Shown piece by piece: positions 38,901 to 42,978 of a DNA stretch of 64,000 nt. The position numbers were made by a program, and so were the translations under genes. Under the pieces are notes generated by a model. It searched no databases, was not told where the DNA came from, and saw nothing but the letters and a program-made list of their open reading frames with translations. The stretch's first letter is position 1, and every line of letters starts with the position of its first letter. The stretch covers positions 3,534,001-3,598,000 of the forward strand of contig NZ_OU963893.1 of NCBI RefSeq assembly GCF_918797525.1, read 5' to 3'. This DNA comes from an unidentified bacterial endosymbiont (GTDB taxonomy: Bacteria; Pseudomonadota; Gammaproteobacteria; Enterobacterales; Enterobacteriaceae).

Positions 38901-39408
38901 AAGTCGTTTTGCCGGTCACGCTGGTATTGAGTACCGTCTGCCATGTGCCGCCGTCCGTCTGCAGGTCAATCGCATAATTAACCGAGTAACCGACCAGATC
39001 GCCGTCGTCCTCCTGCTTGAAAAGCGAAGGCCATTTCAGACGCAGGCGAACTGCTGAAAGCTGCGTATTGGTAAACGTGCGCGTCCACGCTGTAGCGCTC
39101 GATACCTCAGTTCCCACGCTGATTTCGTTTTCGGTACCGGGTATGCCCTGAATATATTTTTGCGCCTGAGTTCCCGCGCGAAATTCCCATGTGACGCCGC
39201 TGAAGTTTTGGGAGCCGTCAGCATTCTCCAGAGCCGTTCCGTCCAAGTATATATCTTTCGCCGTCATCTGCCCTGCAAATTCACCCTCTCCCAGCGCAAT
39301 GAGTATTTTTGCCTTCGCTACCGACTGCAGATCATCAGGCTGTTCGGTAGGAGTTCGGGAACTGGAGCTGCCGCCCTTGCGGCCCTTTAAAACTTTTTCT
39401 GTAGCCAT
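35959..39408 (-). CDS. host specificity / central tail fibre protein J
   Basis: The 1149-aa J homologue forms the tail-tip fibre that contacts the receptor. The N-terminal 450 residues carry the lambda J tip domain (QSVAKAKILIALGEGEFAGQ near residue 30, then YALDL-like and YIQERNDAY). Fibronectin type III modules follow near residues 620-810 (NIVISSFSVVQQNISVETMRVSWDQA, KPVGFIASENVVFG), then a helical shaft and a variable receptor-binding end after residue 1000. This last part decides host range. It is the largest tail gene and is overlapped by the downstream gene. Confidence 0.92.
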   Translation of the reverse strand: MATEKVLKGRKGGSSSSRTPTEQPDDLQSVAKAKILIALGEGEFAGQMTAKDIYLDGTALENADGSQNFSGVTWEFRAGTQAQKYIQGIPGTENEISVGTEVSSATAWTRTFTNTQLSAVRLRLKWPSLFKQEDDGDLVGYSVNYAIDLQTDGGTWQTVLNTSVTGKTTSGYERSHRIDLPQAGSTWTIRLRKITSDANSAKIGDTMMLQSFTEVIDAKLRYPNTALLYIEFDSSQFNGSIPQISCEPRGRVIRVPDTYAPETRTYSGTWTGTFKWAWTDNPAWIFYDLVVSDRFGLGDRLTTANIDKWTLYQVAQYCDQMVPDGKGGSGTEPRYTCNVYIQERNDAYTVLRDFAAIFRGMTYWGDDQIVALADMPRDVDFTYTHANVIDGRFTYSSSTTKNRYTNALVSWSDPDNAYSDAMEPVFEQALVARYGFNQLEITAIGCTRQSEANRKGRWGILTNNKDRVVTFNVGEDGNIPQPGYVIAVADRNLSGRDLGGRISAVNGRVLTLDRAPDASAADRMIVNLPSGVSQSRTIQSITGNKVTVTIAYSETPVAEAVWVIESDELYAQQYRVITVTDNNDGTFTIVGANHDPDKFDRIDTGAIIDQRPVSVIPLGNQSPPENIVISSFSVVQQNISVETMRVSWDQAQNAIAYEAQWRRNDGNWVNVPRSSTTSFDVPGIYAGRYLLRVRAINAAEISSGWGYSEEKTLTGKVGNPPKPVGFIASENVVFGIELNWGFPANTDDTLKTEIQYSLTGTEDDAMLLADVPYPQRKYQQMGLKAGQIFWYRAQLVDRSGNESGYTEWVRGQSSIDVSDITDVILEEIKDSDTFKDLIENAVDSNEKIADMVNDIKQNADDLEQQALAIQQSADGLAQAEVKIDEISVSMDGMAGGVKNSAIAIIQNGLAQVSARRSQTATNAGNSASIDRIDTTIADTSSAVARALVTLDASVGGNISNATDLTETLADFTQASATKINTLTVTSGENTAAITVNAKAVADVNNNLSAMYNIKVGVSSNGQYYAAGMGIGVENTPNGMQSQVIFLADRFAVTTQAGSTVSLPFVIQNGQTFIRDTFIQDGTISNAKIGSYIQSSNYVAGSAGWRWGKDGTMQNYGSDSSGAMKQTNVTISIKDTARLRVQIGKITGTF

Positions 39409-39417
39409 ATTGCGCCC

Positions 39418-39442
39418 ATAAAAAAGCCACCCGAAGGTGACC
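39418..39442 (-). terminator. terminator-like hairpin between I and J
   Basis: On the minus strand GTCACC-TTCG-GGTGGC precedes a run of T. It lies in the late operon just before J, so late transcription must read through it. Confidence 0.55.
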
Positions 39443-39459
39443 TGAAAAAGGTTTGTTAT

Positions 39460-40062
39460 CTACTGCTGATCTTCGACATAAATTCCGGCAGAAATAATCG
39501 CCCCGCCTATCCGCCGGCGACCATACAGGAGCGGTACCGGATTCCCTTGGGCTGTCGTATTTGTGACTCCACCAAAGGCATAACTGGCCTTGTTGTCCGC
39601 CGATTGCTTGCTGGCGAGTCCGGTTGTCTGCGGTGAGAGCATCTGCACAATGCCGCCCAAGGCCATTGCCCCACCGATCTGGAACATGATGTTGCTCGCC
39701 GCAATACCTACTCCTGGCATCCAGATTGCAGCAGCGACAAGTGCAACGCCAAGGATGGTCTGGAAGATACCTCCCCGCTTACTCCCGACCATAATTGGTG
39801 CTATTCGGATATCAGCTGAACTCTGATCCATAACGAGTTCATCATTGTTCAGGTTACGCTTGCCGCTGAAAACGGCATAAGTCAGGCCGCGCTGTTTGCT
39901 GGTATTCAGAAAACGCTCAAACCCCGGCACGATAACGCTCAGGGCACGGATGGCCTCTTTCGGTGATGCGACTGATAAACGATATTCGCGCCCGAAGGTA
40001 GCACCCAGTACACCGTAGAGCCTAACGGTTCGAACAGGCTCCATATTGAGTAAAGCGGCCAT
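39460..40062 (-). CDS. tail assembly protein I
   Basis: The 200-aa product resembles lambda I: an N-terminal ubiquitin-like domain (VRLYGVLGATFGREYRLSV, then PGFERFLN) and a C-terminal hydrophobic, glycine-rich region (LGVALVAAAIWMPGVGIA, IGGAMALGGIVQML) ending in VPLLYGRRRIGGAIISAGIYVEDQ-like residues. It works with J, K and L in assembling the tail tip. ATG 40062 follows GGAG; an upstream GTG/TTG extension is not needed. Confidence 0.88.
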   Translation of the reverse strand: MAALLNMEPVRTVRLYGVLGATFGREYRLSVASPKEAIRALSVIVPGFERFLNTSKQRGLTYAVFSGKRNLNNDELVMDQSSADIRIAPIMVGSKRGGIFQTILGVALVAAAIWMPGVGIAASNIMFQIGGAMALGGIVQMLSPQTTGLASKQSADNKASYAFGGVTNTTAQGNPVPLLYGRRRIGGAIISAGIYVEDQQ

Positions 40063-40073
40063 ATTTTCTCCAT

Positions 40074-40138
40074 AAAAAAAACCGCCGAAGCGGGTGTGTA
40101 AGGTAGCAAAAAGCAAAAAACCCGCCAGATGGCGGGTT
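40074..40138 (-). terminator. two terminator hairpins downstream of the toxin-antitoxin pair
   Basis: On the minus strand AACCCGCC-ATCT-GGCGGGTT with T-run (40114-40138) is followed by CCGC-TTCG-GCGG with eight T (40074-40094). The double stop isolates the Panacea unit from gene I, consistent with expression in the lysogen. Confidence 0.75.
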
Positions 40139-40142
40139 TAAG

Positions 40143-40595
40143 TTATGTGCCTGTCAAACCATCTGTCGGTTCAGGCTGATCTATGAGAGGCGGGTTCGTA
40201 CAATATTTATCTTTAAACCTGATGTGCTTTGGTTTTGCTTGTTCTGAAATATCGAATCCTGAGAGTACTCTTTCGAATGCGGCTTCTGGCATATCATCAT
40301 GCGCCGTTATTTCACCGGCAGCATGCTTTCTTTCAACATTATCGACGCGCCAGATAACCGCCTCGGCATAGACTATATAACTGGGATGCTGGATAAATCG
40401 ATGGTCGCCAGGGTTAAGCACGCACGCATCATCATGAGGAACGCCCGGCTTAATGCTGGACACATTAACAACCAAAATGCAGTAACAGTCGTTTACTGGG
40501 TAATAAACAGGATCGTTGCAAATCACATGAAGATGATTGCATGGCCCGCTTGGAGCTAAAACCGTTCCTTTTTTATATGGTTGAAATGTGCTCAT
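40143..40595 (-). CDS. PemK/MazF-like protein, probable toxin of the Panacea pair
   Basis: The 150-aa product has the look of a PemK-type SH3 barrel: KKGTVLAPSGPCNHLHVICND at the start, CILVVNVSS in the middle, then DDACVLNPGDHRFIQHPSYIVYAEAVIW, equivalent to the strand and turn regions of MazF/PemK toxins, which are mRNA endonucleases. It follows the Panacea gene with a 4-bp ATGA overlap, the usual antitoxin-toxin order. Activity is inferred; catalytic residues cannot be assigned with confidence by eye. Confidence 0.6.
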   Translation of the reverse strand: MSTFQPYKKGTVLAPSGPCNHLHVICNDPVYYPVNDCYCILVVNVSSIKPGVPHDDACVLNPGDHRFIQHPSYIVYAEAVIWRVDNVERKHAAGEITAHDDMPEAAFERVLSGFDISEQAKPKHIRFKDKYCTNPPLIDQPEPTDGLTGT

Positions 40596-41164
40596 GACAA
40601 TTGAGAAGAAAACTCCTTAAGCTCTTGTGATTCGCACATGCTCCTGAAAATATTTTCTGCTTCTTCAGGAGTTTTACCCTCATTCAAAAAAATTTCACGC
40701 ACATCAATGGGGGTTCTAGATCCGCGAGGGTCATGCCATTCCGGACAAACCTCACGCAGGTGAGTCATGTCGCGCAATTCATACCTATTCATGTGACCAT
40801 ACTGGGCATAAATTTCATCGAGAATGCGGACATCTGCCCGGCTCAATTCATCGAAAACTTCATCGGCATCCATTTCTCGCGGATCAGCACTCAGGCAGAC
40901 ATCATGTCCCGCTGTTTGTATCAGCCGATACCAATATTCACCGCCAGTTTCAGCTCTGCCACGGATTATATCCAAGGTAGTAGACATCACAGGGCCATGA
41001 GGCATTGAATAGAGGCGATCCTCACCCATCATGCGTCCATGGCGGATCATAGACTCACGATTGGCCAAGTATAATAACTTCATAAGCTTCAGATATGCCA
41101 TGCGCCCGCCACGCTTAAGTAGCAGGTAAGCAGCCATCTGAGCTACTTTTTCTTCGCTAAACAT
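40592..41164 (-). CDS. Panacea-domain (DUF4065, SocA-like) antitoxin
   Basis: The 190-aa protein carries the Panacea domain: VAQMAAYLLLKRGGRMAYLK, then LMKLLYLANRESM and SMPHGPVMSTTLDII, a helical fold also found in SocA of Caulobacter, where it delivers toxin SocB to ClpXP. Panacea proteins serve as antitoxins to many unrelated toxins. Here the gene stands first, with its own promoter region, ahead of a PemK-like gene and inside the tail operon between K and I. Confidence 0.8.
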   Translation of the reverse strand: MFSEEKVAQMAAYLLLKRGGRMAYLKLMKLLYLANRESMIRHGRMMGEDRLYSMPHGPVMSTTLDIIRGRAETGGEYWYRLIQTAGHDVCLSADPREMDADEVFDELSRADVRILDEIYAQYGHMNRYELRDMTHLREVCPEWHDPRGSRTPIDVREIFLNEGKTPEEAENIFRSMCESQELKEFSSQLS

Positions 41165-41501
41165 ATAGAACCTCTAAATCATTGATGAAAGCAGAACTCT
41201 ACAGTGATTCTATAGCTAGCTATAACTTTTAAGCAATCAACATTTCGTCAAGATAGGCCCACGTTCGACGACGATCGCAATGGTCACTTTGCAAGTTATC
41301 GACGCATTCGGCGAAATTACCCCTCGATTATTAGTAAAGTAATATCACGATCTCAGGAGATAGGCTGGGCCTATGACGCGGCTCGGACTGTCAAAAAAGG
41401 CATAAATAGCACTTTTTGCACAAAAAGCATATCAAGCATGCAATGCATCACTTAACAAATTGCTGTAGTATCTTGCGCCCTCTGAATGCTGCGCTTATAT
41501 T
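41165..41501 (-). promoter_or_regulatory. Panacea operon promoter region with palindrome
   Basis: This 337-bp gap has no gene. On the minus strand TTGCTT and TATAGA, 16 bases apart, form a sigma-70-like promoter about 45 bp before the antitoxin ATG. A perfect 14-bp palindrome TATAGCTAGCTATA (41211-41224) overlaps the -10 element and is a natural operator for autoregulation by the antitoxin complex. The remaining 250 bp next to gene K show AT-rich sequence but nothing else recognisable. Confidence 0.55.
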
Positions 41502-42221
41502 TTAACCACGTTCGGATATTGCTTTATGTCTGAGTATCTTCATGGTTCTTTCCATCCAGTAGCCCCCATACGGCACGCGCTGGCTCAAATGCCCATAAAG
41601 GTGATGCAGTAGCATATTGCCTTCCAGCAGAATCCCCGCATGATTCCACTTATCAGCCTGAACCTGCATGATCACCATATCGCCTGGTTTTGGTGGGCCG
41701 TCGAATTCCCGGAATCCGCACTCATACCAGCAATCCTGATAGAAGTTGTCCGGACAGTCGTTTTCCCACCAGGGATAATCGACCCGGTAATCGTGAAGCT
41801 CGATTCCGTGCGTTTGCCAGTAATAGCTCATCACCAGCCCCCAGCAGTCAAAGTGACCAAGCACAAACGGACGCTCGAGCAGCGGCAGTTCTCCACGCGG
41901 CTGGATGGTGCGTAAATCCCCCTCCGGCCAGCTCACGATATGCCAGGGTAAAAGGGTTGCATCACATTGCGCTTTATCCAGTTCGCTCGGTTGCGTCGAG
42001 GCATCAGGGTGACTGTGAGCGATGGCTATGACCTTCCCCCAGTCCTCAGCAGCTGCATAGTCTTCGGGGCAAAGTACAAAATTGTCCTCCGGCTCCGCGG
42101 CAAGATTCCGGCACGGAAAATATCGTTCAACACGGCTTTTCTGCGCCACCACGCCGCAGCACTCGCGAGGATACTCAGCTGCAGCATGGGCCATAATCGC
42201 ATAGATGGTTTTCTGGCGCAT
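41502..42221 (-). CDS. tail assembly protein K (JAMM plus NlpC/P60 peptidase)
   Basis: The 239-aa protein has two enzyme domains as in lambda K. An N-terminal JAB/MPN metal site (ECCGVV, then HSHPDASTQPSELD near residue 70) is followed by a C-terminal NlpC/P60 Cys-His domain (GHFDCWGLV near residue 123, KWNHAGILL near 190). It is thought to process peptidoglycan or tail proteins during tip assembly or DNA entry. It starts 2 bp after the L stop. Confidence 0.9.
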   Translation of the reverse strand: MRQKTIYAIMAHAAAEYPRECCGVVAQKSRVERYFPCRNLAAEPEDNFVLCPEDYAAAEDWGKVIAIAHSHPDASTQPSELDKAQCDATLLPWHIVSWPEGDLRTIQPRGELPLLERPFVLGHFDCWGLVMSYYWQTHGIELHDYRVDYPWWENDCPDNFYQDCWYECGFREFDGPPKPGDMVIMQVQADKWNHAGILLEGNMLLHHLYGHLSQRVPYGGYWMERTMKILRHKAISERG

Positions 42222-42222
42222 A

Positions 42223-42978
42223 TCAGCTCCTGATCAAAGACGTGCCCGGGAACCCACCATGCGAAAGCTCGTTATCTTCACCGAACCGAAGTTTGCAGGC
42301 CGTCAGCGTGCCATTGCATTCGTCCAGAGAAGGGTCGCTCACCGGGTTGTTGTTTTTATCGAAATAGCGGGTTCCGGCATAGTCGCAGCCATCGCCGGTG
42401 CGATATTTATTCCGGATACACCAGGTACACAGAGAATGAAGTTGACGTGTGGGGATCATCTTTCCCTGTAACGACATCGGGCTATCGAGCACGAATTCGA
42501 TACTTTCGCTCGGAATTTCGCTGTTTTTGCTATCAATGTAAAAAACTCGTTTTCTGACCTGTTGCGGATCGGCTTTTGGGTTCCCTTCCGGGAAATTGCG
42601 GGCATCGAGATAATGCGCAAAAGTGTCATGGATCGTGACTTTAGCTTGCAGCATATCGTCATAAGCCAGACACAACGCCGTGATGGTGCTATCAATATTT
42701 CCCACGGTTAGCGTAGGCTGGGAACCACTTCCCTCTGTGGAAGCATCAAGGCCACTGATTTCATAGGGCCATGCGCCATACTCTTCTCCCTGCCACCAAA
42801 TACTCTTCGCCTTCAGCTTTGATTCGTCACCTCCAGCGGCGGCAATTTCTTCTTCCGTGTGTGGGAGGTTGTACGCGTGAAATCGCAGTACATGATCCAC
42901 GCCGAACGTAGAGCCATCAACTTCGATAAGCCGGACTTTATTGCAGGGCTCAAGGCTTTGATAGTCTGCTGTGATCAT
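42223..42978 (-). CDS. minor tail protein L (iron-sulfur tail-tip protein)
   Basis: The 251-aa L homologue has a beta-rich N-terminal domain and a Cys-containing C-terminal domain (LCTWCIRNKYRTGDGCDYAG, then DECNGTLTACKLRFG) with the set of cysteines that hold a [4Fe-4S] cluster in lambda L. Its ATG overlaps the M stop (ATGA). Confidence 0.9.
   Translation of the reverse strand: MITADYQSLEPCNKVRLIEVDGSTFGVDHVLRFHAYNLPHTEEEIAAAGGDESKLKAKSIWWQGEEYGAWPYEISGLDASTEGSGSQPTLTVGNIDSTITALCLAYDDMLQAKVTIHDTFAHYLDARNFPEGNPKADPQQVRKRVFYIDSKNSEIPSESIEFVLDSPMSLQGKMIPTRQLHSLCTWCIRNKYRTGDGCDYAGTRYFDKNNNPVSDPSLDECNGTLTACKLRFGEDNELSHGGFPGTSLIRS

Follow-up and report, generated by a model that had tools for sequence, protein, structure and literature searches.

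What is a pair of short, overlapping genes doing between tail genes K and I of a lambdoid prophage? The pair is found in a stretch of 64 000 nt (the window) from the genome of an enterobacterial endosymbiont (assembly GCF_918797525.1, contig NZ_OU963893.1, positions 3 534 001 to 3 598 000). This genome is a single 4.76-Mb contig, and at least 36 species of its genus have been sampled. The original prediction, made from the DNA letters alone, was of a Panacea antitoxin with a PemK-like toxin. We consider it very probable that these genes, here called panA and panT, are a type II toxin-antitoxin module (PanAT) residing as a moron in the slot between K and I (the K-I slot) and forming with the leader in front of them a leader-plus-cargo cassette. 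Toxin-antitoxin modules of this kind have been described before; what makes the locus interesting is less the pair itself than its leader, which other cargos share.

Position of the gene pair in the tail operon

Both open reading frames (ORFs), of 150 and 190 amino acids (aa), were confirmed on the minus strand with their ATGA overlap, and matches to PHROG families on either side confirmed the position between K and I (Table 1). For gene I a longer ORF, 39460-40116, matched phrog_32 (PHROG tail assembly; E 1e-76).

In seven related phage records the content of the slot varies. K and I abut in HK225; we saw one small gene and a terminator in HK106, a lipoprotein gene with an annotated promoter in mEp390, two hypothetical genes in LMessi, one in PHB10, gp20 in mEp506 and, in HK97, a 321-bp gap with a terminator and without an annotated gene in that record. 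K-I is an ordinary moron slot, and the pair is an accessory insert (moron) of the lambdoid prophage tail operon: it stands between essential genes, HK225 has no insert there, the six other phages carry something different, and the insert has a terminator of its own. Morons of HK97-type phages, with the K-I slot among their sites, were reportedly described by Juhala et al. in 2000. As in those phages, an accessory gene and/or a terminator stands here between K and I, while the cargo is a two-gene toxin-antitoxin pair with a long leader common to several cargos. A passage in PMC7067206 credits the term moron to Juhala et al. 2000 and describes prophage accessory or moron loci as often highly expressed.

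PanA, PanT and the conservation of the pair

The Panacea identity of the 190-aa protein was confirmed. Residues 27-136 of PanA matched Panacea domain PF13274 of Pfam (E 5e-19; 69.7 bits against a cut-off of 25.7), the protein matched phrog_1281 (E 1.5e-24), and it is the sole Panacea match in the genome. SocAB of Caulobacter is similar in having an antitoxin with a Panacea domain; however, PanA is far under the cut-off of the SocA equivalog NF047745 (16.4 bits against 190). Matches of PanA to ribosomal proteins in PDB (best E 0.036) were dismissed as chance.

PanT contains no Pfam family; among 52 members of its family a match to PF02452 (MazF/PemK) was seen in one, at E 0.18, so that this family is not reached at the sequence level. 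The fold is a matter of a predicted structure. Among 50 fold matches listed for the model, 47 were to entries for MazF, Kid or an interferase/endoribonuclease, including three with no name beyond YdcE, toxin or toxin-antitoxin complex, and 3 to CcdB, with 6-14% identity to PanT among the matches listed. The proposed MazF/PemK-type barrel is borne out by these matches, and PanT is predicted to have the MazF/CcdB fold. The catalytic residues of MazF/PemK are Arg and Thr. In the 52 sequences no Arg was present in the 16 invariant and 10 nearly invariant columns; His21, His23 and Ser47 appear, by eye on the model, to lie in the matching strands. PanT thus differs from the MazF/PemK/Kid toxins in having no Pfam PemK match and no invariant Arg, and in being partnered by Panacea rather than by a MazE/PemI-type antitoxin. 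Its matches to LL-diaminopimelate aminotransferase (16 bits against a cut-off of 507) and weak PDB profile matches (best E 0.071) were attributed to chance.

As a unit, the two genes are conserved among phages and plasmids that are not related to one another. We collected 112 partner loci (L001-L111 and L156), all but L009 and L156 retrieved via the partner alone; 20 end at a contig edge, and in each of the 92 loci with at least 300 bp of upstream sequence the Panacea gene was upstream on the same strand. L112 and L113 (the window's own copies) were excluded, as were L114 and L115 (weak profile matches, Panacea present, partner not found by tblastn). Because many loci are near-identical, the 92 do not amount to 92 independent events; identity of the partner to the window PanT goes from 99% down to 29%. 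Gene spacings, which are upper values since they were estimated from alignment ends, were within 60 nt in 81 loci and 66-123 nt in 11, and genes not more than 100 nt apart were found in more than one species. This order, together with the ATGA overlap in the window, supports the toxin-antitoxin layout.

Carriers of the pair include Escherichia phage SKA5, Yersinia phage YeP1, a Klebsiella phage, Pseudomonas phage Sirocco (Peduoviridae), a Vibrio phage of the Tectiliviricetes (tectivirus class), a Helicobacter prophage, and plasmids of Acetobacter and Endozoicomonas; Yersinia phages YeP2 and YeP3 match too (sequence search only). In Escherichia coli, 205 of 5426 genomes matched at 60-80% DNA identity, none over 80% of the query; both genes were covered, at ∼71% DNA identity, in the 40 matches listed, and the one copy inspected is terminal in a prophage-like block, with zur next to it. 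The partner was present in one of 36 genomes of the source genus, namely the source genome (one of 60 genomes in all), and in three of 369 genomes drawn across the class, the source genome included. Being this rare in genus and class, the pair is accessory. The PanT homologue of Sirocco (L004:1486-1884) is unannotated; the record lists a short ORF on the opposite strand instead.

A leader shared by unrelated cargos

The non-coding DNA in front of panA is conserved beyond the pair. When the 346 bp in front of panA were compared by BLAST with phage records, HK639 (two records) and Salmonella phage SW-37 matched. The HK639 leader, 72.7% identical in DNA to that of the window over 249 bases, precedes gp17, an unrelated protein of 190 aa, and gp18, a toxin of the YafO family (PF13957, E 1.3e-20). 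The two loci are alike in the leader and in lying in a tail operon; they differ in the proteins and in the slot, which in HK639 has a lipoprotein gene on one side and a minor tail gene on the other. The idea, suggested by its length, that HK639_17 is a Panacea protein was rejected on protein searches. In SW-37 the leader precedes apparent pieces of a Doc-type gene.

Scanning viral contigs for a 22-bp core gave 26 stretches. As leaders were collected with the exact core, invariance of the core is by construction. We distinguished 27 leaders: 10 with PanAT, 2 with the YafO pair, 13 with a Doc-type pair, 1 with another pair (L145) and 1 (L142) that ends before its cargo; ORFs were listed for 26 loci. 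L129 shows the first gene only and was counted as Doc-type because its leader is identical to those of L141 and L149. Pfam scans of two of the Doc-type cargos, L133 and L138, gave Fic (PF02661, E 2e-12); the rest were assigned by the same protein start, SW-37 by its pieces. The L133 toxin also matched NCBIfam DOC_P1 (139.7 bits against a cut-off of 38.65). Beyond the 27, the leader was seen in L156 (with PanAT) and in L157 and L158 (with Doc).

Three types of toxin-antitoxin pair, Panacea-MazF-like, YafO-type and Doc-type, are found behind the leader, at several places of phage genomes. One place is the K-I slot; another is in tails of a second type, where a small gene (the lipoprotein gene in HK639) and gene M flank the insert. 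In L139, L143, L147 and L158 the leader adjoins other genes and is not part of a tail operon. The left boundary of the leader is mostly the same, L129, L142 and L158 being different.

Similarity of the leader does not follow similarity of the cargo. In L156 PanA and PanT are 45.5% and 42.6% identical to the window proteins, and the leader is 79% identical in DNA; in L032 and L034 the proteins are 99% identical to those of the window and the leaders 80.8%. The closest of the 25 other leaders, that of L145 (82.9%), stands before unrelated genes. On these sequence comparisons, the best explanation appears to be that leader plus cargo is exchanged between phages as a cassette, with the cargo replaced independently of the leader. 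It is possible, and we propose it tentatively, that the leader is a functional cis-acting module (a promoter/operator region or a recombination landing site) marking an exchangeable slot where different toxin-antitoxin pairs of enterobacterial lambdoid phages come under common control. Caution is needed here: if the DNA between tail gene and cargo simply recombined as a block, the same mosaic would arise from a leader that has no function. Presence of the leader at several unrelated positions, mostly with the same left boundary, speaks against such a block.

A gene spanning the leader was ruled out by at least one stop per frame in all 26 leaders analyzed (a very short ORF may still be present), and a structured RNA leader was not supported: RNAalifold of the 26 gave −8.9 kcal/mol, with two-sided change in one of 16 pairs. 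The alignment, fold and frame tests used 26 of the 27 leaders; L033, nearly identical to L032, was omitted. Two leader queries (E 1e-5) had no match in 20 395 E. coli records. In a literature search that covered titles and abstracts, with subscription journals mostly outside its scope, we saw no description of a conserved leader or of toxin-antitoxin morons in lambdoid tails.

Several cargos deserve a mention in their own right. The 190-199-aa proteins upstream of the YafO toxins (L123:2393-2965, HK639, and L126:2569-3168, a viral contig; minus strand) are alike by eye and have no Pfam match over cut-off; that of L126 is phrog_8416. Possibly they are an undescribed type of antitoxin for YafO. 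The first gene of the Doc-type pair (L133:3434-3721 and relatives; start uncertain) is phrog_2208, without a Pfam or NCBIfam match, and probably encodes an unrecognised Doc antitoxin. The Doc-type cargo seems broken in SW-37 (L124, CP051275.1, an unannotated record), with intact copies elsewhere. The fourth cargo (L145:2449-3478, minus strand) encodes a 72-aa (phrog_9843) and a 282-aa protein (phrog_3630), the latter membrane-bound by its looks; we list the two as candidate accessory or defence genes. Finally, in L159 (reverse strand, 2981; genome G729) the core is present alone, without the remaining leader or a listed cargo, and the next genes resemble, by eye, a metal-type ABC transporter.

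Promoter, palindrome and terminators

Table 1. Features of the K-I region, in window coordinates
Feature	Coordinates	Strand	Remarks
Tail gene I, downstream flank	39460..40062	-	start ATG 40062 behind GGAG, chosen by eye
Second, weaker hairpin + T8 before gene I	~40074..40096	-	by eye, missed by scan
Intrinsic terminator of cassette	40118..40139	-	9 pairs, 6 GC, T-rich tail (scan)
panT	40143..40595	-	150-aa MazF/CcdB-fold toxin candidate; phrog_19071
panA	40592..41164	-	190-aa stand-alone Panacea (SocA-like) antitoxin
Candidate promoter TTGCTT-18-TAGAAT	41207..41236	-	weak, 8/12, by eye
14-bp dyad TATAGCTAGCTATA	41211..41224	.	in spacer, overlaps candidate -10 by two bases
Conserved non-coding leader	41240..41508	-	~270 bp, common to several cargos
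Leader core TTGTGCAAAAAGTGCTATT	41405..41423	-	single site in window when up to 2 mismatches are allowed; 100 shuffles gave a mean of 0
Tail gene K, upstream flank	41502..42221	-	phrog_30, E 3.6e-131

The regulatory part of the original prediction, a private promoter with a palindrome over its −10 and self-regulation of the pair, held up less well. No site directly in front of panA was found in a sigma-70 consensus scan; the scan of the region gave two sites versus 3.6 expected, the sole one on the minus strand being 41356-41327 (9/12). TTGCT[T/C] of the weak candidate is kept in 25 of 26 leaders, the exception being L036. The word ‘private’ is wrong because the leader upstream is common to other cargos.

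The dyad TATAGCTAGCTATA does exist: it is perfect and has one site, with a mean of 0 in 100 shuffles even with one mismatch, a test that covers the given 14-mer rather than dyads in general. Its position over the −10 shrinks to an overlap of two bases with a weak candidate chosen by eye. The form TATAGCT[A/G]GCTATA, with 0-1 mismatch, was present in PanAT leaders and in that of L145, with its unrelated cargo; L151 and L156 have two mismatches to the window form, and the dyad was absent from the YafO and Doc leaders compared. A role of the dyad as PanA operator is not supported by this distribution. With no DNA-binding domain recognised in PanA by Pfam (residues 137-190 are without a match) and the dyad also preceding the unrelated L145 pair, self-regulation of the pair is not supported. 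Its presence in L145 and absence from the YafO and Doc leaders make the dyad more plausible as a component of one type of leader.

Of the two terminators proposed, one is clear; the second is a weaker hairpin with T8 seen by eye, and HK97 carries an annotated terminator at the same place in front of gene I. The terminator scan gave two sites versus 2.0 in shuffles, a count at chance level, with the other site on the opposite strand inside panT. Rfam search of 39400-42300 returned two sub-threshold matches only, both at 40072-40170, between the 3′-end of panT and gene I.

Relation to known PanAT systems

The partner had been thought new for a Panacea antitoxin; published work does not bear this out. 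The text of Kurata et al. 2022 (PNAS, PMC8832971), as far as it was available, named the Panacea domain, validated nine pairs and has PemK among the Panacea-linked partner domains; two of the validated toxins, from Bifidobacterium ruminantium and Pseudomonas moraviensis, were placed by HHpred with EndoA/PemK/MazF. For the P. moraviensis pair the same text reports that growth was inhibited and rescued, that a complex formed and that translation was lost. This pair resembles that of the window in combining a Panacea antitoxin with a PemK/MazF-like toxin without a CDD match, while the window pair sits in an enterobacterial prophage tail operon; no leader is mentioned in the portion of the paper text at hand (PMC8832971). 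In the accessible part of Ernits et al. 2023 (PMC10440598) MazF/PemK is among the commonest folds of a toxin-antitoxin network.

Is the P. moraviensis toxin a relative of PanT? The first ten residues of its PanA are printed as MIFSEQKVAQ, as an addition to a truncated database entry (PMC8832971, in the text available). Sirocco PanA starts with MIFSEQKVAQ, followed by Met, and so fits the truncated-entry situation; the Sirocco toxin is 48% identical to the window PanT over residues 7-127. Given the equal N-terminus and this identity, the P. moraviensis toxin is likely to belong to the PanT family. Among the best 120 of 640 Sirocco-PanA homologues, MIFSEQKVAQ was present in 13; three of the 13 have a source name, Pseudomonas in each. 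Panacea antitoxins swap partners, which weighs against inferring the family of the toxin from its PanA. P. moraviensis was not among the named sources in the matches listed for three protein searches (one being the best 120 of 640), and a peptide-pattern scan of genome contigs gave 22 loci with no Pseudomonas in their titles, the pattern being absent from the Sirocco toxin.

Possible mode of action and alternative explanations

By analogy with the probable homologue, PanT would stop growth by cutting RNA, thus blocking translation, and the stand-alone Panacea protein would, as in its family, bind PanT directly and neutralise it. In the lysogen, the weak candidate promoter where the leader ends would drive the pair, which may help to keep the prophage stable and/or to exclude other phages; the trigger might be sensed by Panacea.

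A different reading of the same fold is that PanT is a CcdB-like gyrase poison rather than an RNase, in which case the module would still be a toxin-antitoxin one. We find this improbable: the top 30 fold matches were all MazF, Kid or interferase/endoribonuclease, and the probable homologue from P. moraviensis stops translation according to the text seen of PMC8832971. Far less credible still is the suggestion, prompted by the location of PanT inside a tail operon, that PanT belongs to the tail or its assembly and has Panacea beside it by chance; copies of the pair are also found on plasmids and away from tail operons, related phages do without the pair, and the MazF/CcdB fold predicted for PanT is not what that suggestion implies.

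The pair could also act in phage defence by abortive infection, with Panacea sensing an incoming phage and freeing the toxin, rather than as an addiction module; this overlaps with the toxin-antitoxin interpretation and differs in role only. The location on a prophage, in an accessory slot, is in its favour, as are a sensor role proposed for Panacea and the defence validated for a different, RosmerTA phage pair (both from a partial text of PMC10440598). On the other hand, no PADLOC model matched PanA or PanT, and the portions of literature searched yielded no defence data on the PanT toxin family. Weighing these points, we see defence as a realistic possibility, though not the favoured one.

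Significance

As a PanAT module in a moron slot, the pair extends a probably validated PanAT type by a branch from an enterobacterial prophage and by a structural model, and PanT suggests residues of interest in a MazF-fold toxin without an invariant Arg. If the proposed role of the leader is true, the shared leader would make it possible to study the exchange of toxin-antitoxin cassettes between phages and would raise the question of why expression passes from one unrelated pair to another. It would also offer a DNA handle for further unrecognised cargos, of which L145 is already one unexplained case.
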